Made by a program: the position numbers and the translations under genes | In this document: positions 18,359 through 32,750 of the stretch, piece after piece | Position numbering within the stretch: the stretch's first letter is position 1 | Layout of the letters: the number at the start of each line of letters is the position of its first letter | The notes under the pieces: model-generated | Told to the model about the DNA's origin: nothing | The model's database searches: none | Seen by the model: only the letters and a program-made list of their open reading frames with translations | NCBI RefSeq assembly: GCF_003403295.1 | Contig: NZ_QUWV01000131.1 | Span: forward strand, 1 to 56,038 | DNA: 56,038 bases | Direction: 5' to 3' | Source of the DNA: Komagataeibacter melaceti | GTDB taxonomy: Bacteria; Pseudomonadota; Alphaproteobacteria; Acetobacterales; Acetobacteraceae

Positions 18359-19402
18359 TTACAGGCCGACCTTGCCCGCAGGTGTATCGAGAACAAGGTC
18401 CAGCAACTCGATATAGCCGCGCGTGCTGCGCGGGTCACGATGGCGGACATGGCGGCGGATTTCTTCTTCACGCACATCAGCCAGATAGGCTTCAGTAATA
18501 AACCCTGAACGCAGCCCGTGCGGGGTCAGGCGGGACAGCACTGCATCCGGCAGGCCCGCCATCGCACCCCGGCGTTGCAAAATCTGGCGCACGGCATCAG
18601 GGTGCAGCGCCTTCGCCCACACCCGGCCATGCGCATCCACCTTGCGAAACAGTGGTCCCGCCCCACGCCGGGCCACGGCCTGCCATGCTTCCAGCGCCCG
18701 GACCGGGCAGGTCTGGGCCTGCTGCCCGCGGGCAAGGCCGATTGTCACCCCCTGCCCGGTCTGGTCGGTCTTGCTTGAACGGATGTGTAGTTGCACGCCC
18801 TGTGTGGTGGGTGTCACATCCTCCACACACAGTCCCACCAGTTCGGAACGGCGCAGGGCGGCCGCAAAGCCTACAAGCAGCAGTGCGCGGTCACGGCGGC
18901 CACGGGCGGACAGGTCACAGGTGGCCAGCAACTGGCGCAGCAGGTCCCGCCGCACGGCCACCGGCTTGCTGACCGCCCGGCGCTGCGTACGCAGCACGCC
19001 CTGTAGCGGCCCCTGAATGTCGCGATGCCCCGGGTTCCACGGCAGGTCCCCAAAACGGTGAGCCTTGCCAATGGCGGCCAGCCTGCGGCGGATGGTGGTG
19101 GGTGCGAAATCTTCGGCCAGACTAGCCAAATAGGCCCCGACCACCCTTGGCGCGGCAGGGAGCGGGCAAAAACCGGTTTTCTGGCACCAGGACTGGAAAT
19201 GCGCCCAGTCGGCACGATAGGCGCGCAGCGTGGCGGGGGAAGTCGCACGCCGGGCAAAGCCGGTCGCCACATCCAGCGCCGCGACCCCGGCTGGCGTCAG
19301 GGCCGCATGCGCCGCCCCATCAACCGACAGGCCGTGCGTAGGGAGGGGAGACGGATCGGACGACATGGGGAGCACGATGGCAGGCAGGCCAGCATAACTC
19401 AA
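18359..19402 (-). CDS. Tyrosine-type site-specific recombinase/integrase
   Basis: A 347-residue tyrosine recombinase with a SAM-like N-terminal domain (about residues 35-150) and a catalytic domain. All catalytic positions are seen: R184 (ALRRSELVGL), K211, H295-xx-R298 (HGLRSGF), H321 and the nucleophile Y330 (TRGYIELL). A start at the internal ATG at 19366 is also plausible. No excisionase, relaxase or phage genes are adjacent. It ends the block to the left of the catabolic operon at 19435-32750, so it may be a scar of the event that brought that block in, or a solitary recombinase. Confidence 0.88.
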   Translation of the reverse strand: MSYAGLPAIVLPMSSDPSPLPTHGLSVDGAAHAALTPAGVAALDVATGFARRATSPATLRAYRADWAHFQSWCQKTGFCPLPAAPRVVGAYLASLAEDFAPTTIRRRLAAIGKAHRFGDLPWNPGHRDIQGPLQGVLRTQRRAVSKPVAVRRDLLRQLLATCDLSARGRRDRALLLVGFAAALRRSELVGLCVEDVTPTTQGVQLHIRSSKTDQTGQGVTIGLARGQQAQTCPVRALEAWQAVARRGAGPLFRKVDAHGRVWAKALHPDAVRQILQRRGAMAGLPDAVLSRLTPHGLRSGFITEAYLADVREEEIRRHVRHRDPRSTRGYIELLDLVLDTPAGKVGL

Positions 19403-19434: not shown

Positions 19435-21081
19435 CTATTTGACGCCGAGGTAATGGATGCCGCGCCTGTCGGCCTCGTCATGGGCTTCCTCGTAGCCCGC
19501 ATCGGCATAGCGCATGACACCAAGGCTGGTATCATTGGTCAGGGTTTTCTGAAGCCGTTCATCCGCTTCCGCCGAACCGTCAGCAACCACGGTTATGCCC
19601 GAACTGGTCATGTAACCGGCATATCCGCCACCGCCGGAATGGATCGCAACAAGGTCCGCCTGCGAGGAGCAGGCCAGCATGGCGTTGAGCAGCGGCCAGT
19701 CGGCAATGGCGTCCGAACCGTCCTTCATGTTCTCCGTCATGATGTTGGGATGCGCCATGGCGCCGGCATCCAGATGGTCGCGCGTAAAGGCCACCGGGCC
19801 GGACAGGATGCCCTCACGCACCATGCGGTTTACGGCAAGGCCGACCATGGTGCGGGATTCATGGCCGATCCATGCAATCCGCGCGGGCAGCCCCTCAAAG
19901 GGAATGTACTGCCGCGCAAGGGTGATCCAGTTGACGACGGATGCATCATCCGCAAACGTTTCAAGCAGGTAATCATCTATCTTGCGGATGTCCTCGGGAT
20001 CGTTGGACAGCGCAATCCAGCGGAACGGACCAATGGCGCGGGCAAAAAGCGGGCGCAGATAGGCTTCGGTAAAGATGGGGATGTCAAACGCATCGCTCAC
20101 CCCGGCCTTGTGCGCCTGCGTGCGGATGAGGTTGCCATTGTCAAAAACAACCGACCCGTTTTTGCGGAACGCCAGCATGGCGCGCACATGCCGCACGATG
20201 GACTGTGAGGACAGTTCCATCAGCCGCTGCGGCTCATCACGGCGCAACTGCTCGACATCCTCAAGGCTGATCCCGGCAGGAATATAGCCATAAACCAGAT
20301 CATGGGCCGAAGTCTGGTCGGTCACGATGTCGGGCGTGATGCCGCGTGCCAGAATCTCGGGGAAGATTTCGGCCGCGTTGCCGGTAAGCCCGATCGAACA
20401 TGCCTCCCCACGGGCCTGCGCGGCCGTGACCATGGCCAGCGCCTCATCCAGCGTATCGGCCCGGTGCTGGAGATAACCGGACTGGATACGCTTTTCGATC
20501 CGTTCAGGATTGATCTCGACACACAGGATGACCGCACCCGCCAGCCGCCCGGCCAGCGGCTGTGCGCCCCCCATGCCCCCCAGCCCGGATGTCAGGATCA
20601 GGCGACCGGCAAGGCTGCTGTCAAAATGCTGCTCGGCAATGCGGCGGAAAATTTCATAGGTGCCCTGAATGACACCCTGTGAGCCAATGTACTGCCAGTC
20701 CCCCGCCGTAAGGCCGCCCCAGCAGATCAGGCCCATCTTTTCCAGCCGGTAGAATTCCTCCGCCTTCGCCCACTGGCCGATCATGTTGCAGTTCGCCATG
20801 ATGATGATGGGCGCGCCCGCATGCGTCTTGACCACGCCAATCGGCTTGCCTGACTGGACAATCAGCGTCTCGTCATCCGCCATGGTCTTCAGTGTCGCTA
20901 CAATGGCGTCATGCGCGGGCCAGTTGCGCGCGGCGCGGCCAAGGGCTGCATAAACGACCAGGTTGTCCGGGTCCTCGCCCACGCTCAGCACGTTTTCCAG
21001 CAGGCGCAGCAGCCCTTCCTGCCGCCAGCCCCGACAGCGCAGCGTGTTGCCCGATGTGACTTCAAAGCGTCGCTGCGTCAT
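19435..21081 (-). CDS. Urocanase-family hydratase, probable thiourocanate hydratase
   Basis: A 548-residue urocanate hydratase homologue. The NAD-binding GLGGMGGAQPLAG and the DIVTDQTSAHD block are conserved, so the fold and NAD chemistry are kept. Two signature sites are changed. The RICWLG motif of histidine-pathway urocanases (the Cys410 region in Pseudomonas putida, from memory) is RIAWIG here, with A403. The HHGGGVGMG loop is HSGGGGYAG, starting at H481. With a MIO-less lyase, DUF917 protein, hydantoinase and carbamoylase in the same operon, I infer that it hydrates thiourocanate (or S-methyl-thiourocanate) rather than urocanate. It overlaps the upstream DUF917 gene by four bases (ATGA). 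Confidence 0.82.
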   Translation of the reverse strand: MTQRRFEVTSGNTLRCRGWRQEGLLRLLENVLSVGEDPDNLVVYAALGRAARNWPAHDAIVATLKTMADDETLIVQSGKPIGVVKTHAGAPIIIMANCNMIGQWAKAEEFYRLEKMGLICWGGLTAGDWQYIGSQGVIQGTYEIFRRIAEQHFDSSLAGRLILTSGLGGMGGAQPLAGRLAGAVILCVEINPERIEKRIQSGYLQHRADTLDEALAMVTAAQARGEACSIGLTGNAAEIFPEILARGITPDIVTDQTSAHDLVYGYIPAGISLEDVEQLRRDEPQRLMELSSQSIVRHVRAMLAFRKNGSVVFDNGNLIRTQAHKAGVSDAFDIPIFTEAYLRPLFARAIGPFRWIALSNDPEDIRKIDDYLLETFADDASVVNWITLARQYIPFEGLPARIAWIGHESRTMVGLAVNRMVREGILSGPVAFTRDHLDAGAMAHPNIMTENMKDGSDAIADWPLLNAMLACSSQADLVAIHSGGGGYAGYMTSSGITVVADGSAEADERLQKTLTNDTSLGVMRYADAGYEEAHDEADRRGIHYLGVK

Positions 21082-22184
21082 GATTCCTGTGTCTTTCCTG
21101 CTATGGCATAGGATGCAAGTTCGATACCCAGCGCGCGCTCGACCGGGGGATAGACCGCCGGGTCAACGACGCTGGAAGAAAGGGGAAACTTCGTTTTCTC
21201 GACATGAAGCACAAGGATCTCCATGCCTTCCTCCACCTCGCCCACGCTCAGCGGGTAGCCGGTGGGGTCGAGTGTGGTGATGACATCGGGAAAGGAGGCA
21301 AGACGCTGCCCGTCCGGTGTTTCCACCGCCATGTATTCGTTCATGACATGCAGCACCACGGCGGATTCACCGGAACCGACGGTTATGGTCCCGATATCAA
21401 ACGCTTCATCGGTGTAGCGCACATTCTTGGCGGTGACGCGCCCCTGCGCCATGATCCGCCCGTCCAGTTCGCGCACGATGGCGTCGATCACGGCATGGCC
21501 ACTCTTTTTTTCCGCCTCCAGCACGACTTCACCCAGCTTCAGCGCGCGTGAAATACCTCCGGCGGCGGCATGGGCGCGCACATAGGAGGCTGGCAGGGGA
21601 TTGCGGCATGAGGCGATGAACCCGCCCGACATGTCCGATGCCGTGCGCAGGATGGGCGAGATACGGGCCGTGGCCCCTTTCGCCACCATCTCGATATAGG
21701 CGTTATGCGCCCGGTTGCCGCCCACGACCGCCTGGATCATGGGCAGGGGGGAATTGGCCATGCCGATCGAACCCATGTCGCCCGTGGGGTGGGCGCGCAT
21801 GTCACCCACCGCATCGACCACCTTCGTGCCCAGAATGGCACCCGGCAGCCACGCATTGAGGGTGCTGGACTTACCGTTCTGGCCAATCATCAGGCCATAT
21901 ATCGGCGCACCCAGTTCCTTCTGCACCAGTCGCACGGCATTGACGTAATCAACGCCCAGCATTTCCCACTGCGTGGTGCTGGCAGGTGCGCCGATGGCGG
22001 CCGCCGTGGCGATGATGGCGCCATCGGCAATTTCATCCATGCTGACCAGTTCGGGCCGCCCGGCATTGACGGCGGCGGTGCCCAGCATGCGGCCATGTTC
22101 GACCCATCCGCCACCGCCACAGGCAAAAATTGAACCGCCGCGAATGGCGGCCTCGACATCTCTGGCTACAAGTATTCTACCCAC
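21078..22184 (-). CDS. DUF917 family protein, probable (S-methyl-)thiohydantoin desulfurase
   Basis: A 368-residue protein of the DUF917 family, recognised by the glycine-rich N-terminal segment FACGGGGWVEHGRML, the SMDEIADGAIIATAAAIGAP block and the ACRNPLPA-type/MSGGF centre. From memory, this family is now described as S-methyl thiohydantoin desulfurase. In this operon it would remove sulfur (as sulfide or methanethiol) from the imidazolone product of the urocanase-like enzyme, giving hydantoin-5-propionate. Gene order supports this: it sits directly before the hydratase (four-base overlap) and 44 bases after the carbamoylase. The exact sulfur substrate is inferred. Confidence 0.8.
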   Translation of the reverse strand: MGRILVARDVEAAIRGGSIFACGGGGWVEHGRMLGTAAVNAGRPELVSMDEIADGAIIATAAAIGAPASTTQWEMLGVDYVNAVRLVQKELGAPIYGLMIGQNGKSSTLNAWLPGAILGTKVVDAVGDMRAHPTGDMGSIGMANSPLPMIQAVVGGNRAHNAYIEMVAKGATARISPILRTASDMSGGFIASCRNPLPASYVRAHAAAGGISRALKLGEVVLEAEKKSGHAVIDAIVRELDGRIMAQGRVTAKNVRYTDEAFDIGTITVGSGESAVVLHVMNEYMAVETPDGQRLASFPDVITTLDPTGYPLSVGEVEEGMEILVLHVEKTKFPLSSSVVDPAVYPPVERALGIELASYAIAGKTQES

Positions 22185-22228
22185 AGTCGGACCTCGTACA
22201 GGAAGTAAGGGGTTAATTTCGTATGTAT

Positions 22229-23491
22229 TCAGCTACTGGCGTCGGTCGCCATGATTGCATCGGCCAGCACGCGCGTGCCGTTGGCGGCATCATGTGCCGT
22301 GATCCATTCTTCCGGGTCATGGCTGCGGCCGTCACGGCAGGGAATGAAAACCATGGCGCTGGGGGCCACGCGCGCAATGAACGCCGCGTCATGCCCCGCA
22401 CCCGAGACCATGCGGCGCGATGACAGGCCCAGCGCACCCGCCGCCGCCTCAAGCCTGCCGGCAAGGACCGGGCTGCAGGCAACGGGGGGTGAGTCGGACT
22501 GGATTTCAAAGCGTGCCAGTGTCACGTCACAGGCCACGGCCTGTTCTGTGGCGACGGCGCGCAGCCGGGCCAGCAGGCGTTCACAGGCATCGCGTTCGCT
22601 CACGCGGATGTCGATCACCAGCCGGGCCTGACGCGGGATGACGTTGGATGCATTGGGCAGTACCTCCACAATGCCGCATGTTGCCGTGACATGCCCCCTG
22701 CCCGCCCGCGCCGCATCGCGCGCCAGATGCGAGACGGCGGTAATCAGACCCGCCGCCGCGACCATGGCGTCACACCGGCAGTCCATGGGGGTCGTGCCCG
22801 CATGGTCCGCGCGACCGGAAAAAATGACCTCGATGCGGGTGACGCCCACAATGGCCTCGACAATGCCGATCTCCGTGCCCTCACGTTCCAGCACGATACC
22901 CTGTTCGATATGCAGTTCCATGAAGGCTGCAATATCGTGGCGCTGCGCGTGAGACAGCCGGGACGCATCGCCCCCCATGCGGTCTATCGCAGCAGCCAGG
23001 GTTTCCCCCCATGGCGCCTGCAGGGCCAGGTGCTGTGGGGTCAGGCAATCGGTCATGCCGCGACTGCCGATGCATGACAGGCCGAACTCGCTCGGCTCCT
23101 CCGCCAGGAAATCGGTCACTTCAAAATGATGCGCCAGCGTAACACCGGCATCACGCATCGCGCGCGCGATCTCCAGCCCCGCCAGCACGCCCAGTATGCC
23201 ATCAAACCTGCCGCCACCGGGCACGGTATCGGAATGGGAGCCGGTCATGATCGTCCGCGCATCGGGCGACTGCGCGCCGCGACGCCCGATCAGGTTGCCC
23301 GCCGCATCAATCCGGCACGCCAGCCCCGCCTGTTCGAAACGATGGCGAAGCCATTCACGCCCTTCGAGAAAACGCGGGGAAAAGGAGCGGCGGGTATAAG
23401 GCTGACCGGGGTCGGTCAGCGTTCCCAGTTCCATCAGATCATCCCACAGCCGCTCGGGCTGGATATGGGGTGAAAGGGCCTGCATGCTCAT
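22229..23491 (-). CDS. M20-family Zn-dependent amidase, probable N-carbamoyl-glutamate hydrolase
   Basis: A 420-residue member of the hydantoinase/carbamoylase (AllC/AmaB) branch of M20 peptidases. Metal ligands are in place: H86 and D97 in GSHSDTVPGGGRFDG, E131-E132 in LAEEPSEFG, H194 in MELHIEQG, and a C-terminal histidine in RDGRSHDPEEW. Family members cut N-carbamoyl amino acids or allantoate, releasing CO2 and ammonia. After the adjacent hydantoinase, the expected substrate is N-carbamoyl-L-glutamate, giving glutamate. Its start overlaps the stop of the hydantoinase gene (ATGA), so the two steps are coupled. Confidence 0.86.
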   Translation of the reverse strand: MSMQALSPHIQPERLWDDLMELGTLTDPGQPYTRRSFSPRFLEGREWLRHRFEQAGLACRIDAAGNLIGRRGAQSPDARTIMTGSHSDTVPGGGRFDGILGVLAGLEIARAMRDAGVTLAHHFEVTDFLAEEPSEFGLSCIGSRGMTDCLTPQHLALQAPWGETLAAAIDRMGGDASRLSHAQRHDIAAFMELHIEQGIVLEREGTEIGIVEAIVGVTRIEVIFSGRADHAGTTPMDCRCDAMVAAAGLITAVSHLARDAARAGRGHVTATCGIVEVLPNASNVIPRQARLVIDIRVSERDACERLLARLRAVATEQAVACDVTLARFEIQSDSPPVACSPVLAGRLEAAAGALGLSSRRMVSGAGHDAAFIARVAPSAMVFIPCRDGRSHDPEEWITAHDAANGTRVLADAIMATDASS

Positions 23492-24852
23492 GCGCCATGC
23501 CTTTCGGGGGTGGTGAACCGGCCCGTTCCCGGTTCCGCCAAAACCTCCACGCCATCAAATACGCGCTGGCCACGCAGGTAGGTGGCGGCGATGCGCCAGT
23601 CCAGCGTCCGCCCCTCATAGGGGCTCCATGTGGCAAAGGCGTTGCCGCTGGCGCGCGGGTCATAGATCCATGTTTCAGGCCGGGCGACCGTGATGTCGGC
23701 ATCACGCCCGATGGCAATGCCCCCCTTGCGGTCGGACAGGCGGAACAGGCGCGCCGGATTTTCCGCCAGCAGCCTTGCCGCGAAGGTGGCCGGAAGCCCA
23801 CGGCGCGACAGTTCGGTCAGGAAAAGCGGGTACAGAACCTCAAGCGATGGCGCGCCGGAGGCGTTTTTCAGCATGTTCGGGTCGGTCTTGCGTTCCTCGC
23901 TCCATGAAACATGGTCGGTTGAAACCACCGTCACGTTCCCCGCCACCAGATGCGCCCATATGCCCTCGACCTCGCTCCGGGGGCGGATGGGCGGGTTGAT
24001 CTTGGCCTTGCCGCCCAGACGCGCGACATCATGTTCCTCATCCAGCGTCAGGTAGTGGATGCAGGCCTCGATGGTAGTATCAAACCCCTGCCTGCGGTAC
24101 GCGGCGCAGAGTTCGTAGCCACGAGCGATGGAGGCATGCACCACATGGGCCGAACAGCCGGTCGCCGCCGCGATTTCATAAATCTCGGACGTAGCCAGTG
24201 CTTCGGATAGTGGCGGGCGGGACAGCCCATGCGCACGCCAGTCGGTAATGCCGGATTCCGCCACGCGGCGGATATGGGCGCGCACCATCGCGTCATGCTC
24301 GTTATGCACACCGGCGGCCAGACCGCAGCGGGCAACCGCGGTGAAACATTCAGCCAGAAGATCAGCGGGGATGCGCGGGAACCGCTCGGGGTCGGTGCCG
24401 AAGGTGGAGAACTTGAAGGCACAGGCCCCCGCCGCCGCCATGTCGGCAATATGGGCCGGGCCATCGGCGGGTGCTATGGTGCCCCACAGGGCAAAATCCA
24501 CACGGGCCTGTTCGGCAGCCTCCCGCGCCTTGAGCCGCAGGCGGTCAGCGGTACAGACCAGAAAGCCATCATCATACGGCATGTCGGCAATGGTGGTGAT
24601 CCCCCCCGCCGCGGCGGAACGCGTGGTCCAGATGAAGTCTTCCTGCCCCTTCTGCGAGCGGGAATGGACCTGCGCGTCAACCCCGCCGGGAAGAAGCAGG
24701 GCGTCACCATAATCCTGCGTTTCCGCCGCCTGTGGGGCTGCCCCCTGCCCGAAGCGGGAAATACGGCCATGATCGACCGCGATCCAGCCATCATGCAGTA
24801 TTCCCGCGCAGGTCACGACCGTTCCGGTCAGGACAAGTTCATGCATTTTCAT
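23488..24852 (-). CDS. Cyclic amidohydrolase (dihydroorotase/allantoinase/hydantoinase family), probable hydantoin-propionate hydrolase
   Basis: A 454-residue amidohydrolase. The beta-1 metal motif, normally HxH, reads D59-A-Q61-V-H63, so the first histidine is a glutamine. The likely carboxylated lysine is K147 (AFKFST), followed by ligand histidines in HNEHD and HVVHAS and an aspartate in STDHVSW. The Q-x-H variant occurs in some dihydroorotase-like enzymes, so the gene need not be dead. In this operon it would open the hydantoin ring to an N-carbamoyl amino acid for the next enzyme. I start at 24852 (MKMHEL). It overlaps the lyase gene by 14 bases and the carbamoylase by four. Confidence 0.84.
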   Translation of the reverse strand: MKMHELVLTGTVVTCAGILHDGWIAVDHGRISRFGQGAAPQAAETQDYGDALLLPGGVDAQVHSRSQKGQEDFIWTTRSAAAGGITTIADMPYDDGFLVCTADRLRLKAREAAEQARVDFALWGTIAPADGPAHIADMAAAGACAFKFSTFGTDPERFPRIPADLLAECFTAVARCGLAAGVHNEHDAMVRAHIRRVAESGITDWRAHGLSRPPLSEALATSEIYEIAAATGCSAHVVHASIARGYELCAAYRRQGFDTTIEACIHYLTLDEEHDVARLGGKAKINPPIRPRSEVEGIWAHLVAGNVTVVSTDHVSWSEERKTDPNMLKNASGAPSLEVLYPLFLTELSRRGLPATFAARLLAENPARLFRLSDRKGGIAIGRDADITVARPETWIYDPRASGNAFATWSPYEGRTLDWRIAATYLRGQRVFDGVEVLAEPGTGRFTTPERHGA

Positions 24853-26392
24853 GATGCTCCTGCAAGATGCCGTCAGCCCCGAACAGAAGGGCGGAAGGGC
24901 CAGATATTTCGGTTGCGCCGGTGAACAGGACCTCACGCGCGGCGTCAAAAACTGTGCATAGCGGGACCAGGTCGGTCACGGGCGCGATCCGGGTCGCCAG
25001 TCGCGCATGCAGCCGCCCGGCCATGCCGTGCAGGGTGCTTTCATTGCCCGCCAGATGCACGGCCTGAAAGGCGGTCACGGCTTCCTGCGCGACCAGCCGG
25101 CGCAGCAGGCCGATCTGCAGTTCCAGCGCGCGCCCGGCCATGGGCAGGTAAGAGGCTTCATCCTCCACCCCGTTGGCCACCGGCACCTGATAGAGCGAGG
25201 CAGGCGCCGCCTCACGCAGGATTCGGGTGCCCAGATCGACCGCCAGCTTTGTCGCGGCGCCGAAGGCGATGTCATATCCCGCATGCAGGGTAAGATTACG
25301 CGGCAGGCCGGACAGGTCATCACGGCACAGGGTCAGAATACGCCCCATGGACCCGCGCGCGTAATGCGCGACCGCCTGCAGCAGCATCTGCACATCCAGC
25401 GTCAGTTCCAGCGGGAGCGACCCGCCGGAGGTCAGGATCTCGTCACCCACCAGCAGCGGGTTGTCATCACAGTGGTTGAAGGCATGGCGCAGCGCCGCAT
25501 CCACCCGCAGCAGGGCCGAAAGCAGCGCGCCCCCTGTCTGGGGCAGGCAGCGGAAGCATAACGGGTCCTGGATATGCCCGCGTGAAACCCATGCGTCATC
25601 ATCCATCGCCTGCATGACGAAGGTGGCCACGCGCCTTTCGGCAGGCGTGCCATTGGCCCGCACCGCCTGCCATGGCGCACGGAACGCACCAAACCCGGCG
25701 CAGGACAGGCCATACACCCCAAGGCTCACCGGCAATGCCTGCCGCAGTTCCATCACCGCAAGCGCAACGGTGGCGACCGACAGCGCATTGCTGGACAGCA
25801 CCGTCATGATGTCCTTCGGCCCGGGGACGAAGGGCGACAGGCCATGACGGCGCAGCATGGCCATGGCGGGCTGGGGCGTGTCATACCCCGGTACCATTAC
25901 ATCCCCATCGCCCAGCAGCGCCTTGCCGATATGTGACATCAGCCCGACATCCGCACACCCGATGGAGCCATAGATGCGCACAACTGGCGTAATACCCGCA
26001 TTGAGCAGGTCACGCAGCGCCACCGCCAGGGCGGGGGAAGCCCCCGTCTGCCCACTGAGCAGCCCGTTGAGGCGAATGGCCATGGCGGCCCGCACCTCAC
26101 GCACGGCAAAGGCGGGCCCGGAACCCAGTGCATGCGAACGCAGCAGCCGCCGGGCATAGGCGGTCGTGTCATCCGTGGGAATGTCACGGTCCTTGAAGGC
26201 GCCGACCATGCTGGTGGTGCCATAGACCTCACCGCCTTCCGCCAGCAGTTCCAGCAGGACGGCATGGCTGGCGGCCATCCGTTCCATCCCTTCGGCCGAA
26301 AGGATGACGGGCGCACCATCCGCTATCGCGGCAACCTGTGCCAGGCACAGGTCATGTCCCGTCAGGACCACATCGGTGGCGTGCTGCATCAT
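24839..26392 (-). CDS. MIO-less aromatic ammonia-lyase homologue, probable ergothionase
   Basis: A 517-residue protein with the histidine/phenylalanine ammonia-lyase fold. The conserved tyrosine motif is present as VYGTTSMVG (Y57). The Ala-Ser-Gly triad that cyclises into the MIO cofactor is absent: where lyases have GSxGASGDLAPL this protein has GSIGCADVGLM (C146-A147-D148), without the serine. Such a protein cannot make canonical MIO. Ergothionase, which eliminates trimethylamine from ergothioneine to give thiourocanate, is reported to be a MIO-less member of this family, and the operon partners fit that route. The start at 26392 has GGAAG upstream. 26404 is also possible. Confidence 0.8.
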   Translation of the reverse strand: MMQHATDVVLTGHDLCLAQVAAIADGAPVILSAEGMERMAASHAVLLELLAEGGEVYGTTSMVGAFKDRDIPTDDTTAYARRLLRSHALGSGPAFAVREVRAAMAIRLNGLLSGQTGASPALAVALRDLLNAGITPVVRIYGSIGCADVGLMSHIGKALLGDGDVMVPGYDTPQPAMAMLRRHGLSPFVPGPKDIMTVLSSNALSVATVALAVMELRQALPVSLGVYGLSCAGFGAFRAPWQAVRANGTPAERRVATFVMQAMDDDAWVSRGHIQDPLCFRCLPQTGGALLSALLRVDAALRHAFNHCDDNPLLVGDEILTSGGSLPLELTLDVQMLLQAVAHYARGSMGRILTLCRDDLSGLPRNLTLHAGYDIAFGAATKLAVDLGTRILREAAPASLYQVPVANGVEDEASYLPMAGRALELQIGLLRRLVAQEAVTAFQAVHLAGNESTLHGMAGRLHARLATRIAPVTDLVPLCTVFDAAREVLFTGATEISGPSALLFGADGILQEHHENA

Positions 26393-26458
26393 GCAATCTT
26401 CCATGCAGGTAGTTTCGCATTTATATCATTGGCGGTCTTATGCTTATCCCTGCGCAAG

Positions 26459-27739
26459 CTATGCCTCCGGCTGCACATCATGCGTCGGGCCAACATATCT
26501 TGCGCAGGCCACCAGGGCCGCCAGTGCGGGAATGGCCGCGAACGCGACATAGAAAGCGGGTGCCAGAAGCATATGCTGCCGTGCGCCGAGCATGCTCAGG
26601 AACGCAGGCGCAAAACCGCCAAAAACCGTCATCGCGGCATTGTAGCTGATGGCGATGCCACTGGCGCGGACCTGACGGGGGAAAAGGCTGGCAATACCCA
26701 GCGGGGCCACGCCCACATACAGCGCCACGAGCAGGCACAGCCCGGTCTCGACCCCCACCATGGCCAGCAGGCCGGGATGAGGTGGCAATGCCGCGGTCAG
26801 CATCATGGGCACGACCGCCAGCGCAAGCGCGCTACCGGACAGCATGCGCCATGCCCCGATCCGGTCCGCCATCCTGCCCGCCAGCAGCGATCCGCCCACC
26901 AGCGCCAGGTTCCCGGCCATGAAGGCGACATAACTGGCATGGGCCGAAACACCAAAGGCCGTCTGCATGTAAAGCGGGAAATAGATGATAAGGCTGTACG
27001 GCGCTGCTGCCCACAAAATGGACATGCACAGCGCCAGGGCAATATTCCTTTTGTATTTACCAAACAGTTCGGACAGGACCGATATGTTCCGGCCTGCCGT
27101 GGGCGCGGGCATGTCCGGCATCATGGAGCGACGCAGGTAGATCCCGACAGGGATGATGGCCAGTCCGATGGCGAATGGCACACGCCAGCCCCACGCACCC
27201 AGTTGCGCATCCGTAAGGATGGTCGTCAGTACTGCCGCGACACCCGCGCCAAGGATGTTGGACAGCCCCATCGTGGCCTGCAGGAACGAACCCGACAGCC
27301 CGCGCAGGTGACGTGGCGCCTGTTCATTGAGAAAGGCCGTGGCACTGCCAATCTCACCACCCGCGCATATTCCCTGCAACAGCCGCGCGCAGCACAGCAC
27401 GAGAATGGACAGCCGCCCGATGTGGGCATAGGGCGGGTCCAGCATGATCAGCGCCGCCCCCACCCCCATGAGAACACATGTGACCGACAGGGCCTTGCGG
27501 CGTCCATGCCGGTCCGCATAAAGCCCCAGCACGAACGCACCCAGCGGGCGCGCCACCGCGCCCAGACCGAAAACCAGCAGGCTCTGCGCCAGTTGGGAAA
27601 ACCCGTCGGCCGAGCGGAAAACCGCCTCCCCTATATAGCGGGCAAACAGCGCATAGACCGTAAAATCGTACCATTCCAGAAGGTTGCCGACGGAAGCCGC
27701 CATAATCAGGTTACGATGTCGCATGGGGGGCGTCTGCAC
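26459..27739 (-). CDS. MFS transporter, metabolite:H+ symporter (MHS/ProP) family
   Basis: A 426-residue twelve-helix transporter. The opening GNLLEWYDFTVYALFA, the loop DRHGRRKALSVTCVLMG and RLLQGICAGGEIG are hallmarks of the MHS family that includes ProP, ShiA and KgtP. ProP itself carries proline and betaines. Ergothioneine is a histidine betaine, so import of this substrate is a reasonable inference from position, directly before the lyase gene. It follows the TonB receptor gene by 76 bases in the same operon. Confidence 0.85.
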   Translation of the reverse strand: MQTPPMRHRNLIMAASVGNLLEWYDFTVYALFARYIGEAVFRSADGFSQLAQSLLVFGLGAVARPLGAFVLGLYADRHGRRKALSVTCVLMGVGAALIMLDPPYAHIGRLSILVLCCARLLQGICAGGEIGSATAFLNEQAPRHLRGLSGSFLQATMGLSNILGAGVAAVLTTILTDAQLGAWGWRVPFAIGLAIIPVGIYLRRSMMPDMPAPTAGRNISVLSELFGKYKRNIALALCMSILWAAAPYSLIIYFPLYMQTAFGVSAHASYVAFMAGNLALVGGSLLAGRMADRIGAWRMLSGSALALAVVPMMLTAALPPHPGLLAMVGVETGLCLLVALYVGVAPLGIASLFPRQVRASGIAISYNAAMTVFGGFAPAFLSMLGARQHMLLAPAFYVAFAAIPALAALVACARYVGPTHDVQPEA

Positions 27740-27815
27740 GGCGTTTGTCCTTCATCACGTAAAATTCCTTCCTGCCCCAACTGCATCAGCGGGGCAGGAA
27801 GGCATGCCGGATGGA

Positions 27816-30161
27816 TCAGAAATTGGTGCTGATCGTACCGAAGAACTGCCGGGGCGCCCCCATCAGGAAGTAGTTGTAGCCCGCGGTAAAGGTATTCCCC
27901 AGTTCGTTCGTGGTTGCGGCATAGGTCTTGTTGAACAGGTTATAGACATTGAAGCTGGCGTTGATGCCCTTGAGGAACTTGTAGTCCCCGAAGTTGTAAT
28001 GCATGCCGAAATTGGCCAGGAAGTAACCGGGCACATGCGCATCGTTGGTATAGGTAAGCTGGCGGCTGGAGATGTAATTCCCATCCAGGTTCGCCTTGAA
28101 GTGGTGCCAGCTATAGGAAATGCTGCCCTTGTACATGAACGTGGGATAGTTCGGTATGAGCTTGCCACGGGTCGGCTCAAGGCCGGCACTCGTCATGACG
28201 TTCTGGTCGTACGTGGAATGGGCATAGGAAAAGGAGTTGTAGATCGACAGCCCATTGGTCGGGCGCACGGTAAAGCTGGCTTCCGCCCCGTTGGTGGTGA
28301 CACCGCCCACGTTGCTGATCGCGGTCTGCGCGTTGATCCCGTGGTTGGATGTGATCAGCTGCAGGCGGTTGGAGAAGTTGACGCGGTAGAGCGAGACCAG
28401 CCCGCTGAGCATGGGCGTGGTGTAGCGGTAACCCAGTTCGTAAACCCAGTCCTTTTCCGGGCGTAGCTGGTTCTTGGTGGACTGGAAGGCGGTCTGCGTT
28501 TCCGTCCACGGGGTGGCGGAGACGTTGGTGGTGAAGCCATCTTCAGGATAGGTACGCATGTTCTTCGAGACATCGAAGAACAGTTCATGATGCGGCAGGA
28601 AGCGCCATGCGGCGGAGACCTGCGGCAGGAAGGCATCAGCCGCCGTCAGGTTGCCCTGTGCGATCAGCCCGCCATTGGCCGCGACATTCTGTGTCGGCAC
28701 GGTATTGCCCGCTGAGACGATCATGGATTTGAAACCTGCATTGATCTTCAGGTTCTTCATGACCTGGAATGTATCCTGCAGGTGGAACGTGAACGTGTTG
28801 CTATGGAAGATTTCCTGCCATGGCGTGGCGAAGACGTTGGAGGGATAGCCATCGGTCGGGTTGCCCAGCGTACCCTGCCCCAGCAGCGGGGCCTCGGCAA
28901 AGGAGCGCCCTTCGGTAAAGCGGCCATATTCATACCACACACCGGCATTGATCTTGTGCCGCGCAATGCCATAGGTCACGGCGGAAAGGAAACCGCCGCG
29001 CTGGATGCCCGGGTCCTGCACACGCTGCGACAGCGGCGCACCGTTGGGTGAGGGCATGTACGGCGTGGTCCATGTGCTGTAGCCGCTATCGCCATGGCCA
29101 TAGACCGTTGTTTTCCAGTTCAGGTGGGATGTCAGGTTTTCATCAAGCGTGATCCCGCCAAAGTAATCCACGCGGTTGGCGGTGCCTGCATAGTAAGCGG
29201 CATCATACGGGTCGTTGGATTTCTGGTACTGCGCGGGATAGATGCCCTGCGCGGCCTGATAGGCGGCAGTATAGTTGGGGTAATAGTTGGAAAGCTTGGG
29301 GCCGATCGTGCTCAGGTAGTTCTGGGTCATGTCCTGGTAGTCGAACTGCTGGGTCGAGCTCCAGTCAAAAAACGCCTTGATGGATGACCCGTTGGCCAGT
29401 GGCTGCACGATCTTGGCGTTGACCTGATCGGAATAATCGTAGCCGCCACCCTTCCACAGGTTCATGTCCGTACGGGCATAGGATGCGTAAAAGCGCGTGC
29501 CGCTGCTGTTCAGGTCACCACTGTTGATGCGCGCGAAGGTGCGGAAGGTCTGGTTGCTGCCGAAGGTCTGTTCCACCGTGCCCCCACGGGTGTGGGAGGG
29601 GTCGATGGAATGGAACTGAATCGCACCGCCAAGGTTGCTGTTGGACGCCACATCCACCGCACCGGCACCCTGTGACACATCTGCCCCGCCCACGTTGTCG
29701 GTCGTGATGGCGCGGTTGATGCTCAGCCCGTTATAGTTGTTGAACTGCTGGTCACCCAGCGGGATGTCATCAAGCGTGAAACCGATCTGGTTCTGTGAAA
29801 AGCCGCGCATGTACAGCGAGCTTGAATATTCATACGACCCGAACGGATCGGCGGACTGGTACACAATGCCCGGCAACTGGTTCAGCACCTTCATGGGGGA
29901 GGTGCCGGGCACGCTCTGTTCCATCATCGAGCGGGTTACACTGGTCATCTGCCGCGTTGACCCATGGCCGAAAACCGCAATGGTCTCGCTTGCCTGATGC
30001 TTCAGGACCGCCTGCGCGCGCTTGGTGTGCGCCTTTGTTGTGTCAGGGGAATGGGTGGCATGCTCCGCTGGCGGTGCATCAGCGCCCCATGCGTGGTAGG
30101 GTGCAAATGCTGCTACGGTGGCCATTAGTGTCGAACGTGCCAGATTTTTCCGGAAGTCCAT
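27816..30161 (-). CDS. TonB-dependent outer-membrane receptor
   Basis: A 781-residue receptor with a signal peptide ending near AWGA, a TonB-box-like segment ETIAVFG about residue 60, a plug domain (about residues 75-210: MKVLNQLPGI, SSLYMRGFSQNQIGFTLDDIP) and a 22-strand-type barrel ending in ISTNF. The C-terminal phenylalanine is as expected for BAM insertion. It lies inside the catabolic operon between two MFS genes, so it is likely to import the operon's substrate, possibly as a metal complex. Small-molecule rather than siderophore uptake is an inference from the neighbours. The start at 30161 is chosen over 30185 for its better signal peptide. Confidence 0.88.
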   Translation of the reverse strand: MDFRKNLARSTLMATVAAFAPYHAWGADAPPAEHATHSPDTTKAHTKRAQAVLKHQASETIAVFGHGSTRQMTSVTRSMMEQSVPGTSPMKVLNQLPGIVYQSADPFGSYEYSSSLYMRGFSQNQIGFTLDDIPLGDQQFNNYNGLSINRAITTDNVGGADVSQGAGAVDVASNSNLGGAIQFHSIDPSHTRGGTVEQTFGSNQTFRTFARINSGDLNSSGTRFYASYARTDMNLWKGGGYDYSDQVNAKIVQPLANGSSIKAFFDWSSTQQFDYQDMTQNYLSTIGPKLSNYYPNYTAAYQAAQGIYPAQYQKSNDPYDAAYYAGTANRVDYFGGITLDENLTSHLNWKTTVYGHGDSGYSTWTTPYMPSPNGAPLSQRVQDPGIQRGGFLSAVTYGIARHKINAGVWYEYGRFTEGRSFAEAPLLGQGTLGNPTDGYPSNVFATPWQEIFHSNTFTFHLQDTFQVMKNLKINAGFKSMIVSAGNTVPTQNVAANGGLIAQGNLTAADAFLPQVSAAWRFLPHHELFFDVSKNMRTYPEDGFTTNVSATPWTETQTAFQSTKNQLRPEKDWVYELGYRYTTPMLSGLVSLYRVNFSNRLQLITSNHGINAQTAISNVGGVTTNGAEASFTVRPTNGLSIYNSFSYAHSTYDQNVMTSAGLEPTRGKLIPNYPTFMYKGSISYSWHHFKANLDGNYISSRQLTYTNDAHVPGYFLANFGMHYNFGDYKFLKGINASFNVYNLFNKTYAATTNELGNTFTAGYNYFLMGAPRQFFGTISTNF

Positions 30162-30231
30162 ACTTGTGTATCCTTTATCCTGCACCCGGACCCGATGGAT
30201 ATGAGGGTGAATATTCCGAAAGGCGCCTGAA

Positions 30232-31458
30232 CTATTCGTTCAGGCCGTACTGATAAATTCCGGCGCACAGAAAACCGATGGCGCCAGCAACAAGCAGGGA
30301 CGGAACAAACGAGCCGAAGTGATCGGCAATCATTCCGGTCAGGGCGGGCGCAAGCGCGCCACCCAGTGAGCCCCCTGTATTCTGAATTGATTCCATGGTG
30401 GCCACGCGGTCCTCGGCCACGATGACCGCCCCCAGCGCCCAGCCGCAGGTCATGGCGATCCCGCCGGAAAACAGCGCCACGCAGATCAGGGCAACGGACA
30501 CGCCCAGCGATGGAATGACCGCCGCCATGACGGTCGCGACAGAGGCGCAGACCAGCCCCCAGACAAGGGGAATACGGCAGGCCGCGACGGGCGACATGCC
30601 CCTGCGTCCCAGCCGGTCAGTCAGGAAACCGCCCAGCACGCTACCAAAGAAACCGAACAGCTGGGGCAGCGCGGATAACAGCGCCGCCTGCCGTAGCGTA
30701 AGGTGATGAACCTTCTGCAGGTAAGCAGGCAGCCACGCGCCATAGAGCCAGGTAATATAGATCACCCCGACAAAACCCGTGGTCAGCACCCATGTCGAAC
30801 GCTGCCCCAGCAGATAGGACAGATGGGCGCGTGTGGGGATCTGCCGCACAGGGGCGGGCACGATCCGGGCAGGGTCGCGATAGACGGCAAGCCAGACAAA
30901 GGCCACCACCAGACTGGCGCACCCGACAGTAATGAACATGTCCCGCCACCCCCACACGCTCATGATGGCGAGCAGCAGCGGCGGCGCGATGGCTGGCCCC
31001 AGCGTGGAGGATGCGTTGAACAGCCCGATGGGGCCACCACGTTCCTCCGGCCGGAACCAGCGTGTGATCACGCTGGTTCCGGCAAGGAAAAGCGGGGCCT
31101 CCCCTGCCCCGAGCAGCGCACGGCAGATGAAGAAAGCCCACACGCCCGAAGCCAGGCCGAAAGCAATCTGTGCCAGTGACCAGACAACCAGGCTGATCCC
31201 CAGCACAAGGCGGCCGCCCCAGCGATCGGACAGAAGCCCCGCCGGAATCTGGAACACCAGATAGGCCCATGCGAAGGCCGAGAGCATCCAGCCCATCTGC
31301 GTATCGGAAAAGTGCATGTCGGCCACGATTGCCGTATTGCCCACCGATAGCGCGGAACGGTCGATGTAGCTTATGCCACCGGCTACGACCAGCAGCGCCA
31401 CGACCCCACGCCGCCGCCACAGGCCGCCAACCGGACCGGAAAAGGTCATGGCGTTCAT
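30232..31458 (-). CDS. MFS transporter, anion:cation symporter (ACS)-like
   Basis: A 408-residue twelve-helix transporter. The motifs GGISYIDRSALSVGNTAIVADM, AYLVFQIPAGLLSDRWGGR and ALLGAGEAPLFLAGTSVITRWF are typical of the ACS family (ExuT, GarP, phthalate permeases), which moves organic anions with protons. It may carry a carboxylate intermediate or product of the operon, such as thiourocanate. Its ATG overlaps the stop of the LysR gene (ATGA), placing it directly after the regulator in one transcript. Confidence 0.84.
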   Translation of the reverse strand: MNAMTFSGPVGGLWRRRGVVALLVVAGGISYIDRSALSVGNTAIVADMHFSDTQMGWMLSAFAWAYLVFQIPAGLLSDRWGGRLVLGISLVVWSLAQIAFGLASGVWAFFICRALLGAGEAPLFLAGTSVITRWFRPEERGGPIGLFNASSTLGPAIAPPLLLAIMSVWGWRDMFITVGCASLVVAFVWLAVYRDPARIVPAPVRQIPTRAHLSYLLGQRSTWVLTTGFVGVIYITWLYGAWLPAYLQKVHHLTLRQAALLSALPQLFGFFGSVLGGFLTDRLGRRGMSPVAACRIPLVWGLVCASVATVMAAVIPSLGVSVALICVALFSGGIAMTCGWALGAVIVAEDRVATMESIQNTGGSLGGALAPALTGMIADHFGSFVPSLLVAGAIGFLCAGIYQYGLNE

Positions 31459-32750
31459 GCCGCACTCGCCTGCGCCGGGCGTGAACGGATGGTGGCGTTG
31501 CGTGAGCGCTGTGACTGTATTTCCATGATGCTGTTCTTCAGGCGCTCAATACTTGCCATGTCGGCATGACTGGCTTTCCACACCAGTCGGGTTGTCATCC
31601 GGTAGCGCCGTGGCAGGGGAATGGCGCGCACATTGGCCGCATGGAACGACCCGGCCGGAAGCAGCGCACAGCATGTGCCATCAATGACAAGGCGCAGCAG
31701 CAGCGACAGGGACTGCGTTTCCACCACGCCCGCCGGTACGATGCCTTCGTTTTCAAGGAACATATCGGTCAGGCGGCGCAGGCCGGTACCAAAACCGGGC
31801 ACGGCGAGTACATGCGCGCCCATGATGGTGGGCAGCGACATGGCGGCGGATTCCGTACTGTTCATGGGCAGCACGAGAAAGAGGTTCTGCGTTTCCACAT
31901 CAACCGACTGGAAGTGCGATGGCAGGTCAACCAGATCGCACAGCCCCACGTCATAATCCGCATTGACCAGACCCGTTATGATGGTGGGCGCTGCGGTGGT
32001 GGAAATGGTCAGGGATGGTGAAAAGCGTTTTTCACGCCAGTAACGCACCAGCCTTGCCAGCAGGATGGTAAGCGAACTGTCGGGGCTGGAGGGCATCATG
32101 GCCGCAAGGTGCAGCGCCCGGGTCTGAAGGAAGTAGCTGATGTTTTCATCCTTCATGATCCGGCGGTACATCCGGTCTATGGACTGGCAGCCCTGAATGA
32201 GCAGGCGTGCGGCGGCAGTCGGCTGCACGCCGCAGGTTGAACGGACCAGCAGCGACGTGCCGACAATGCTTTCCAGCTTATGGAGCTGCCGCGTAACCGT
32301 GGGCTGGGTCAGCAGCAGCTTGCGCGCCGCCCCCGCGATGCTGCCCACGTCGCACACGGTCAGGAAATGACCGATCATGCGCAGGCTCAGGTTGGAGCGC
32401 AGGATGCGTTGCAGGCTCTCATCCGACAGGCCGGGAAAGGTGACGCGCCGGTCGGAATAAAGATTGAGGGCAAGCCGGGGGGCACGCATCGTCTTGCCCG
32501 AAAGCAGGTCGGCGCACCAGTGCAGCAGCATGACGGAGGAACGGTAGAGATTCTGCCCATACGCCGTGGTGATGCCGGTATGGTTCCGCCGGCGCACGCC
32601 ACGCGTAATAAGCGGGGCCGCCATGGCGTGTTCCAGCGCGGATACGGCGTGACTTATGGTGGACTGGCTGACATTCAGGACGGACGCGGCATCATGGGTT
32701 GATTTATGGTCAACCAGCGAGACGAAATAGATTAACGCGGACAGTTCCAT
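31455..32750 (-). CDS. LysR-family regulator with two tandem HTH domains
   Basis: A 431-residue protein, over 100 residues longer than usual LysR regulators. It has one LysR-type winged helix at about residues 2-62 (HDAASVLNVSQSTISHAVSALE) and a second at about 122-183 (GAARKLLLTQPTVTRQLHKLE), followed by a periplasmic-binding-protein-like effector domain. Both HTH units retain the helix-turn-helix pattern with Q-(S/P)-T-(I/V). It is the first gene of the catabolic operon and is translationally coupled to the next gene, so it is likely to be co-transcribed with, and to regulate, this operon. Palindromes at 32837-32881 are candidate targets. Confidence 0.85.
   Translation of the reverse strand: MELSALIYFVSLVDHKSTHDAASVLNVSQSTISHAVSALEHAMAAPLITRGVRRRNHTGITTAYGQNLYRSSVMLLHWCADLLSGKTMRAPRLALNLYSDRRVTFPGLSDESLQRILRSNLSLRMIGHFLTVCDVGSIAGAARKLLLTQPTVTRQLHKLESIVGTSLLVRSTCGVQPTAAARLLIQGCQSIDRMYRRIMKDENISYFLQTRALHLAAMMPSSPDSSLTILLARLVRYWREKRFSPSLTISTTAAPTIITGLVNADYDVGLCDLVDLPSHFQSVDVETQNLFLVLPMNSTESAAMSLPTIMGAHVLAVPGFGTGLRRLTDMFLENEGIVPAGVVETQSLSLLLRLVIDGTCCALLPAGSFHAANVRAIPLPRRYRMTTRLVWKASHADMASIERLKNSIMEIQSQRSRNATIRSRPAQASAA

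Follow-up and report, generated by a model that had tools for sequence, protein, structure and literature searches.

A nine-gene operon of Komagataeibacter melaceti with a probable role in ergothioneine uptake and degradation

Ergothioneine is a sulfur compound and fungal antioxidant that is taken up by people from food. Here we report that a run of nine genes in the acetic acid bacterium Komagataeibacter melaceti very probably represents a dedicated system for uptake and degradation of this compound. The genes occupy positions 19435-32750 of contig NZ_QUWV01000131.1, all on the minus strand; the window, that is the whole stretch of DNA analysed, comprises 56,038 nucleotides. Inspection of the open reading frames together with Pfam and NCBIfam matches gave the order, from 5' to 3', of a LysR-type regulator, an ACS-type major facilitator superfamily (MFS) transporter, a TonB-dependent receptor, an MHS-type MFS transporter, a lyase, a hydantoinase, an M20 family protein, a DUF917 protein and a urocanase family protein. 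This agrees with the run and the family assignments proposed in an initial annotation. The latter had also suggested ergothioneine breakdown as the function, a reading that is now supported enzyme by enzyme: all five enzymes belong to the five-step pathway by sequence, four of them by passing the respective models and the lyase by its clade.

According to the model that we favour, ergothioneine would cross the outer membrane via the TonB-dependent receptor and the inner membrane via the MHS-type transporter. The lyase, which lacks the methylidene-imidazolone (MIO) group, would then eliminate trimethylamine to yield thiourocanate, a reaction that needs no MIO, given that the group to be eliminated is quaternary from the outset. 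Subsequently, the hydratase would convert thiourocanate to thiohydantoin propionate, from which the desulfurase would remove sulfide to generate hydantoin-5-propionate. Opening of the ring by ErtD would produce N-carbamoyl-glutamate, which ErtE would split into glutamate, ammonia and CO2. The run as a whole is presumably controlled by the LysR-type regulator with its tandem helix-turn-helix (HTH) stretches. The chemistry of each of the five steps corresponds to ergothioneine breakdown as known from other bacteria.

The five predicted catabolic enzymes

Four of the enzymes were assigned by NCBIfam equivalog models with curated cut-offs (figures are given as bits/cut-off where paired), and the lyase by its PDB match and trees:

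19435-21081, minus strand: predicted thiourocanate hydratase, urocanase family (NF058530, 1010/930)
21078-22184, minus strand: predicted thiohydantoin desulfurase, DUF917 / S-Me-THD fold according to Pfam (NF058529, 600.2/440)
22229-23491, minus strand: predicted N-carbamoyl-L-glutamate amidohydrolase ErtE, M20 family (NF058540, 563.7/520)
23488-24852, minus strand: predicted hydantoin-5-propionate amidohydrolase ErtD (NF058538, 755.6/600), with its start ATG at 24852 or 24846
24839-26404, minus strand: MIO-less lyase, proposed ergothionase (ergothioneine to thiourocanate and trimethylamine)

The description of the lyase as a MIO-less homologue in the initial annotation proved correct, as the motif GSVGASGD of histidine ammonia-lyase (HutH) reads GSIGCAD in the window lyase, without Ala-Ser-Gly. 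The residues at the MIO site are CAD in the window lyase, EAD in the proteins of Burkholderia arboris and Paracoccus denitrificans and EGD in the protein of Treponema denticola. On the hutH model TIGR01225, the window lyase reaches 200.8 bits, far under the cut-off of 539.15, and it does not qualify as a MIO-type histidine ammonia-lyase. Comparison with PDB sequences yielded the T. denticola ergothionase 6s7j (1.6e-55), followed by 7tqr (9.6e-36) and the histidine ammonia-lyase of P. putida (1.1e-27).

Phylogenetic analysis placed the protein on the same side. A tree of 53 rows (9 acetic acid bacterial, 17 rhizobial-type, 2 Burkholderia/Paracoccus, 1 T. denticola, 13 HutH, 6 YLTH-type and 5 other lyases) contains a 100/97 branch that separates the first four groups from the HutH, YLTH-type and other rows. 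In a second tree of 40 rows, from which most long rows were left out, the ergothionase-side branch obtained 99/94. The HutH rows formed a group of their own in both trees (92/79 and 100/100, respectively), and an approximately unbiased (AU) test rejected the hypothesis that the acetic acid bacterial and rhizobial-type lyases share a clade with HutH (p 2.3e-5); the clade to be tested was named once the first tree was known. Moreover, at 15 alignment columns, exemplified by Lys71, Asn206 and Lys386, a single residue is shared by at least 21 of the 22 rows on the ergothionase side and does not occur in any of the 10 HutH rows. Tyr61 and Glu414, corresponding to Tyr53 and Glu411 of T. denticola, are common to ergothionase-side, HutH and YLTH rows alike. 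As judged from these comparisons, the lyase is a member of the ergothionase clade, together with the T. denticola ergothionase and apart from MIO-type HutH.

A comparable picture emerged for the hydratase. In a tree of 41 rows, one of them being an incomplete copy of the window hydratase, a 100/96 branch has on one side 25 rows comprising the window protein, PDB 7ned and other rows more than 60% identical. We take 7ned to be a thiourocanate hydratase; its PDB title reads urocanate hydratase. The 13 HutU rows constitute a 100/100 group that includes a second copy from the host's own genome, while the hydratases of the Agrobacterium tumefaciens pAt cluster and of the Acetobacteraceae genome G168 form a separate group and a Deinococcus row is placed by itself, adjacent to the side of the window protein. 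The separate HutU of the host (967/375) implies that the window hydratase would not be needed for urocanate. Thus, grouping of the lyase and the hydratase with true HutH and HutU, the outcome that the initial annotation had named as a refutation of its proposal, did not occur.

Conservation of the operon and alternative substrates

A scan of genome contigs with the lyase alignment A1 retrieved 275 relatives, and the 80 best were analysed further; a scan with the single protein had found none. Among these 80, 13 derive from acetic acid bacteria, namely four from Gluconobacter (including one uncultured metagenome-assembled genome), four from Acetobacter and five from Gluconacetobacter. All nine genes are present in the same order in each of these 13 loci, and likewise in G060, a genome of the host's own genus. 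In 12 of the 13 loci, among them those of Gluconacetobacter asukensis LMG 27724 and Gluconobacter potus R-71646, every gene corresponds to a single, nearly full-length open frame. The other 67 lyase loci are mostly rhizobial; 47 of them encode all four partner enzymes within the flank (up to 9 kb) and five encode one to three.

Within the family, the distribution of the operon is patchy. The lyase was detected at 725-882 bits in 8 of 397 family genomes (next best 288), two of them belonging to the 14 own-genus genomes listed and six to genus g43. The desulfurase model was passed in 7 of 299 family genomes, four with the operon and three with a stand-alone gene, and the hydratase model in 5 of 337 class genomes, the host included. 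Window positions 0.05-44.6 kb, operon included, are collinear in G060, where the DNA identity of the matching pieces is 74-88% and mostly 85-88%. The operon is missing from G184, in which its conserved flanks (at 33.3 kb and 10.8 kb of the window) lie apart, with other DNA between them that includes an inverted copy of the gene at 10.9-12.3 kb. We found no clean empty site, and the G184 comparison demonstrates a variable region, neither gain nor loss. The operon hence sits in a region that is variable within the genus. Base composition across the window revealed no clear break at the operon. A tyrosine recombinase gene (18359-19402) lies immediately downstream and is also present in G060 (84%).

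A search for EgtD gave no match in the host genome, a negative without positive control since the model was over its cut-off in 0 of 14 control genomes as well; in the absence of a match, the source of ergothioneine is probably external. Three further loci deserve mention. A stretch of Microvirga ossetica (L077) carries desulfurase, hydantoinase and M20 genes and no lyase or hydratase match in the stretch fetched; these genes perhaps serve another thiohydantoin substrate. The desulfurase of Rhizobium sp. CC-CFT758 (L082:12001-13081) matches in three pieces and the hydantoinase of Deinococcus sp. KNUC1210 (L079:7533-8767) in two, reflecting frameshifts in the gene or in the assembly in either case.

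Several observations weigh against the assignment to ergothioneine. The lyase, on which the first step would depend, passes no NCBIfam model, there being no ergothionase model among those listed. Its identity to the ergothionase-side lyases of organisms other than acetic acid bacteria is ~29-40%, and it is the most divergent of the enzymes between genera (54% as compared to 79-82% for hydratase and desulfurase). A fold search with its AlphaFold model (predicted local distance difference test score 84.8) returned 6s7j first, at a template modelling (TM) score of 0.88, with histidine ammonia-lyases close behind (0.84-0.87). The fold is thus consistent with an ergothionase, but as the latter enzymes score nearly as well, it was dropped as a means to discriminate ergothionase from HutH. 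The window hydratase also passes the generic hutU model (716/375), though its tree position is outside the HutU group. In 15 of the 67 further lyase loci, none of the four partners is encoded within the flank. Stand-alone desulfurase genes occur in G064, G044 and G124 (L038, L039 and L040) with no other pathway gene in the stretches fetched. These genomes were consequently rejected as further carriers of the operon, and the desulfurase model alone is no proof of the pathway. Finally, in Gluconobacter albidus NBRC 3250 (L126) the TonB and MHS matches are interrupted by early stops, and that of the hydratase is split. These broken frames may result from decay or from sequencing errors, and not every copy of the operon need be in use.

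It is also conceivable that the substrate is a related 2-thio- or 2-seleno-imidazole betaine such as selenoneine, or that several compounds are degraded with ergothioneine as one among them. Substrates at this level are beyond the resolution of sequence families, and the lyases of acetic acid bacteria branch off deeply and on their own in the 53-row tree and have TTSMVG instead of NTGVG/NTGFG after the conserved Tyr-Gly. However, hydratase, desulfurase, ErtD and ErtE all pass models of the ergothioneine pathway, and a single pathway family spans rhizobia to acetic acid bacteria. We therefore consider a different or broader substrate range improbable.

Even less probable is the catabolism of S-methyl-ergothioneine, in which the same fold families would act on an S-methylated substrate and which the initial annotation had kept in brackets as an alternative. 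The superfamilies are indeed shared, and the window proteins score high on the S-methyl models for hydratase (NF058531, 751.3 bits) and desulfurase (NF058532, 279.9 bits). Both scores nevertheless stay under the cut-offs of 880 and 450, whereas the corresponding non-methyl models are passed. In contrast, the reference hydratases from A. tumefaciens pAt (975.8 bits) and G168 (973.5 bits) pass NF058531, and the hydratase tree separates the two types. Moreover, genes for a glutathione S-transferase (GST) and a molybdopterin S/N-oxide reductase, which are found near the pAt hydratase, are missing among the nine.

A second hut set that converts histidine via urocanate to imidazolonepropionate can be dismissed as highly improbable: the lyase and the hydratase do belong to the HutH and HutU superfamilies and the generic hutU model is passed, but the lyase has no MIO motif and stays under the cut-off of the HutH model (200.8 bits against 539), a joint clade with HutH is rejected by the AU test, the nine genes include a desulfurase and neither an imidazolonepropionase nor a formiminoglutamate gene, and hutI, hutF, hutG, hutC and hutU genes exceed their cut-offs elsewhere in the genome.

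Transport, regulation and a second MIO-less lyase

In addition to the enzymes, the run contains the following elements:

26459-27739, minus strand: MHS-family MFS transporter, proposed inner-membrane ergothioneine importer (TIGR00883, 274 bits, below the cut-off of 443)
27767-27802, minus strand: hairpin between the TonB and MHS genes, a possible terminator, attenuator or mRNA-stabilising stem
27816-30185, minus strand: TonB-dependent outer-membrane receptor, proposed entry site of ergothioneine (Pfam barrel and plug)
30232-31458, minus strand: ACS-family MFS transporter (TIGR00893, 240 bits, below the cut-off of 395)
31455-32750, minus strand: LysR-type regulator, first gene of the run (Pfam HTH_1 in two stretches, 2.5e-29, and one substrate-binding domain)

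The TonB-dependent receptor is a constant member of the acetic acid bacterial version of the operon, with 69-97% identity across the conserved copies. Its match in the PDB is weak (FecA, E 4.8e-9). The MHS-type transporter also matches the ProP model, below the cut-off; the MHS family includes the betaine transporter ProP. MHS homologues, 41-45% identical, adjoin the lyase gene in the clusters of B. arboris and P. denitrificans, which makes this transporter the candidate importer. Overall, we see an even chance that the roles assigned to the transporters are correct. The lyases of B. arboris (L073:16142) and P. denitrificans (L080:16236) display signal-peptide-like N-termini by eye, which suggests that ergothionase might be periplasmic in these two organisms.

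Two HTH_1 stretches were found in all eight LysR proteins checked, that is the window protein and seven proteins chosen from the 15 loci with a LysR match (L074, L075, L128, L137, L167, L160 and L081). A regulator with tandem HTH thus accompanies the pathway both in acetic acid bacteria and in rhizobia. The locus of one of these proteins (L137) encodes the lyase and none of the four partner enzymes.

As to the gene junctions, the initial annotation had described them as mostly ATGA overlaps. This applies to three of the eight (LysR/ACS, hydantoinase/M20 and DUF917/hydratase) and was thus overstated. The lyase and hydantoinase genes share 14 or 8 nt, according to which start is used, and the remaining four junctions are gaps of 44-76 bp. 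The nine genes are likely to share one transcript, albeit with some uncertainty caused by the strong hairpin in the 76-nt gap between the TonB and MHS genes (minimum free energy -35.3 kcal/mol, z -4.8; none of 200 shuffles was as good). The hairpin recurs with changed bases in the closest relative, G060 (locus L035). No such hairpin was detected in the short TonB/MHS gaps of other genera, where the gap was readable (in L126 it was unreadable owing to the broken frames). A scan for sigma-70 promoters upstream of the LysR gene yielded two sites, neither on the operon strand.

The host genome encodes one other PF00221 protein, designated C199 (L042:11139-12620), which is located in a hut cluster next to genes whose products exceed their cut-offs for hutI (443.9/298), hutF (557/413), hutG (322/279), hutC (264.5/220) and hutU (967/375). 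C199 is MIO-less as well, being a YLTH-type lyase (GSVGYLTH) with a distant relationship to the window lyase, and reaches 409.5 bits on the hutH model (cut-off 539). Lacking the MIO motif, it was rejected as an ordinary HutH. In the 53-row tree it belongs to a separate 100/100 clade with copies from pAt, Burkholderia pyrrocinia and Rhizobium phaseoli. Four sister species (G060, G135, G254 and G699; L225-L228) have differently arranged hut clusters that contain a MIO-type HutH. A MIO histidase was not found in the host genome, as the PF00221 search gave these two lyases, both MIO-less. Tentatively, the host might live on two fungal histidine betaines, degrading ergothioneine through the operon while C199 eliminates trimethylamine from hercynine and feeds urocanate into HutU, although we regard this as rather unlikely. 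If true, it would reveal an undescribed hercynine branch and a genome without histidine ammonia-lyase. No report of hercynine degradation via a lyase to urocanate was found in the open-licence literature searched.

Significance and comparison with known systems

In the same literature, no title or abstract start concerned ergothioneine breakdown in acetic acid bacteria, which is consistent with the initial annotation, where no report for these organisms was known; the main pathway papers did not surface there either. We consider it well supported that the operon belongs to a known pathway, encoded here in hosts without a report in this literature and in combination with transporter genes and a type of regulator of its own. 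According to a 2026 paper (PMC13405746), ergothionase has been definitively identified in few organisms, and a deeper analysis may be needed for divergent homologues. The conserved operon provides candidate ergothionases in Gluconobacter, Acetobacter, Gluconacetobacter and Komagataeibacter, with a related lyase in many rhizobia, and also supplies candidate transporters and a candidate regulator for the pathway. Aspergillus oryzae makes ergothioneine, and the compound was measured in two vinegars, as stated in a further paper (PMC11219324), which suggests that substrate and acetic acid bacteria can meet. If the operon is active, carrier strains growing on fungal material would reduce the level of ergothioneine and give off trimethylamine and sulfide.

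Bacterial ergothioneine catabolism in five steps was reportedly described by Beliaeva, Leisinger and Seebeck in 2021. The operon resembles this pathway in that four of five enzymes pass its NCBIfam Ert equivalogs and the fifth falls on the ergothionase side of the tree. It differs by its TonB and two MFS genes, while the clusters of Paracoccus aminophilus and Thalassospira have ABC and TRAP genes nearby, by its regulator, which is located inside the run and is co-directional, and by its diverged lyase. The T. denticola ergothionase (6s7j/6s7q) is the best PDB match of this lyase in both sequence and fold (TM 0.88). Neither protein has MIO, and the equivalents of Tyr53 and Glu411 are kept in the window lyase, though in HutH too. 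However, the two are ~29% identical, and the MIO site reads CAD in the window and EGD in T. denticola.

The rhizobial clusters, such as those of Rhizobium sp. SL42 (plasmid, L076) and Shinella sp. PSBB067 (L081), share the order of lyase, hydantoinase, M20, desulfurase and hydratase genes and have a LysR gene nearby, with two HTH_1 stretches in L081. In contrast to the operon, LysR is encoded on the opposite strand where found and is ~24-31% identical to the window protein. A further difference recorded for these clusters concerns TonB, ACS and MHS homologues, none of which turned up in the flanks of the 67 loci outside the acetic acid bacteria (for the MHS homologues of B. arboris and P. denitrificans, see above). 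The pAt cluster of A. tumefaciens Ach5 (L078) comprises the same five enzyme superfamilies and is of the S-methyl type according to its hydratase, which passes the S-methyl model (975.8/880). The hydratase of G168 (L041) passes this model as well (973.5/880) and groups with pAt, representing a second pathway type in the Acetobacteraceae. The pAt cluster is further distinguished from the operon by the presence of GST and molybdopterin reductase genes and by a lyase that carries GSVGYLTH and belongs to another clade.

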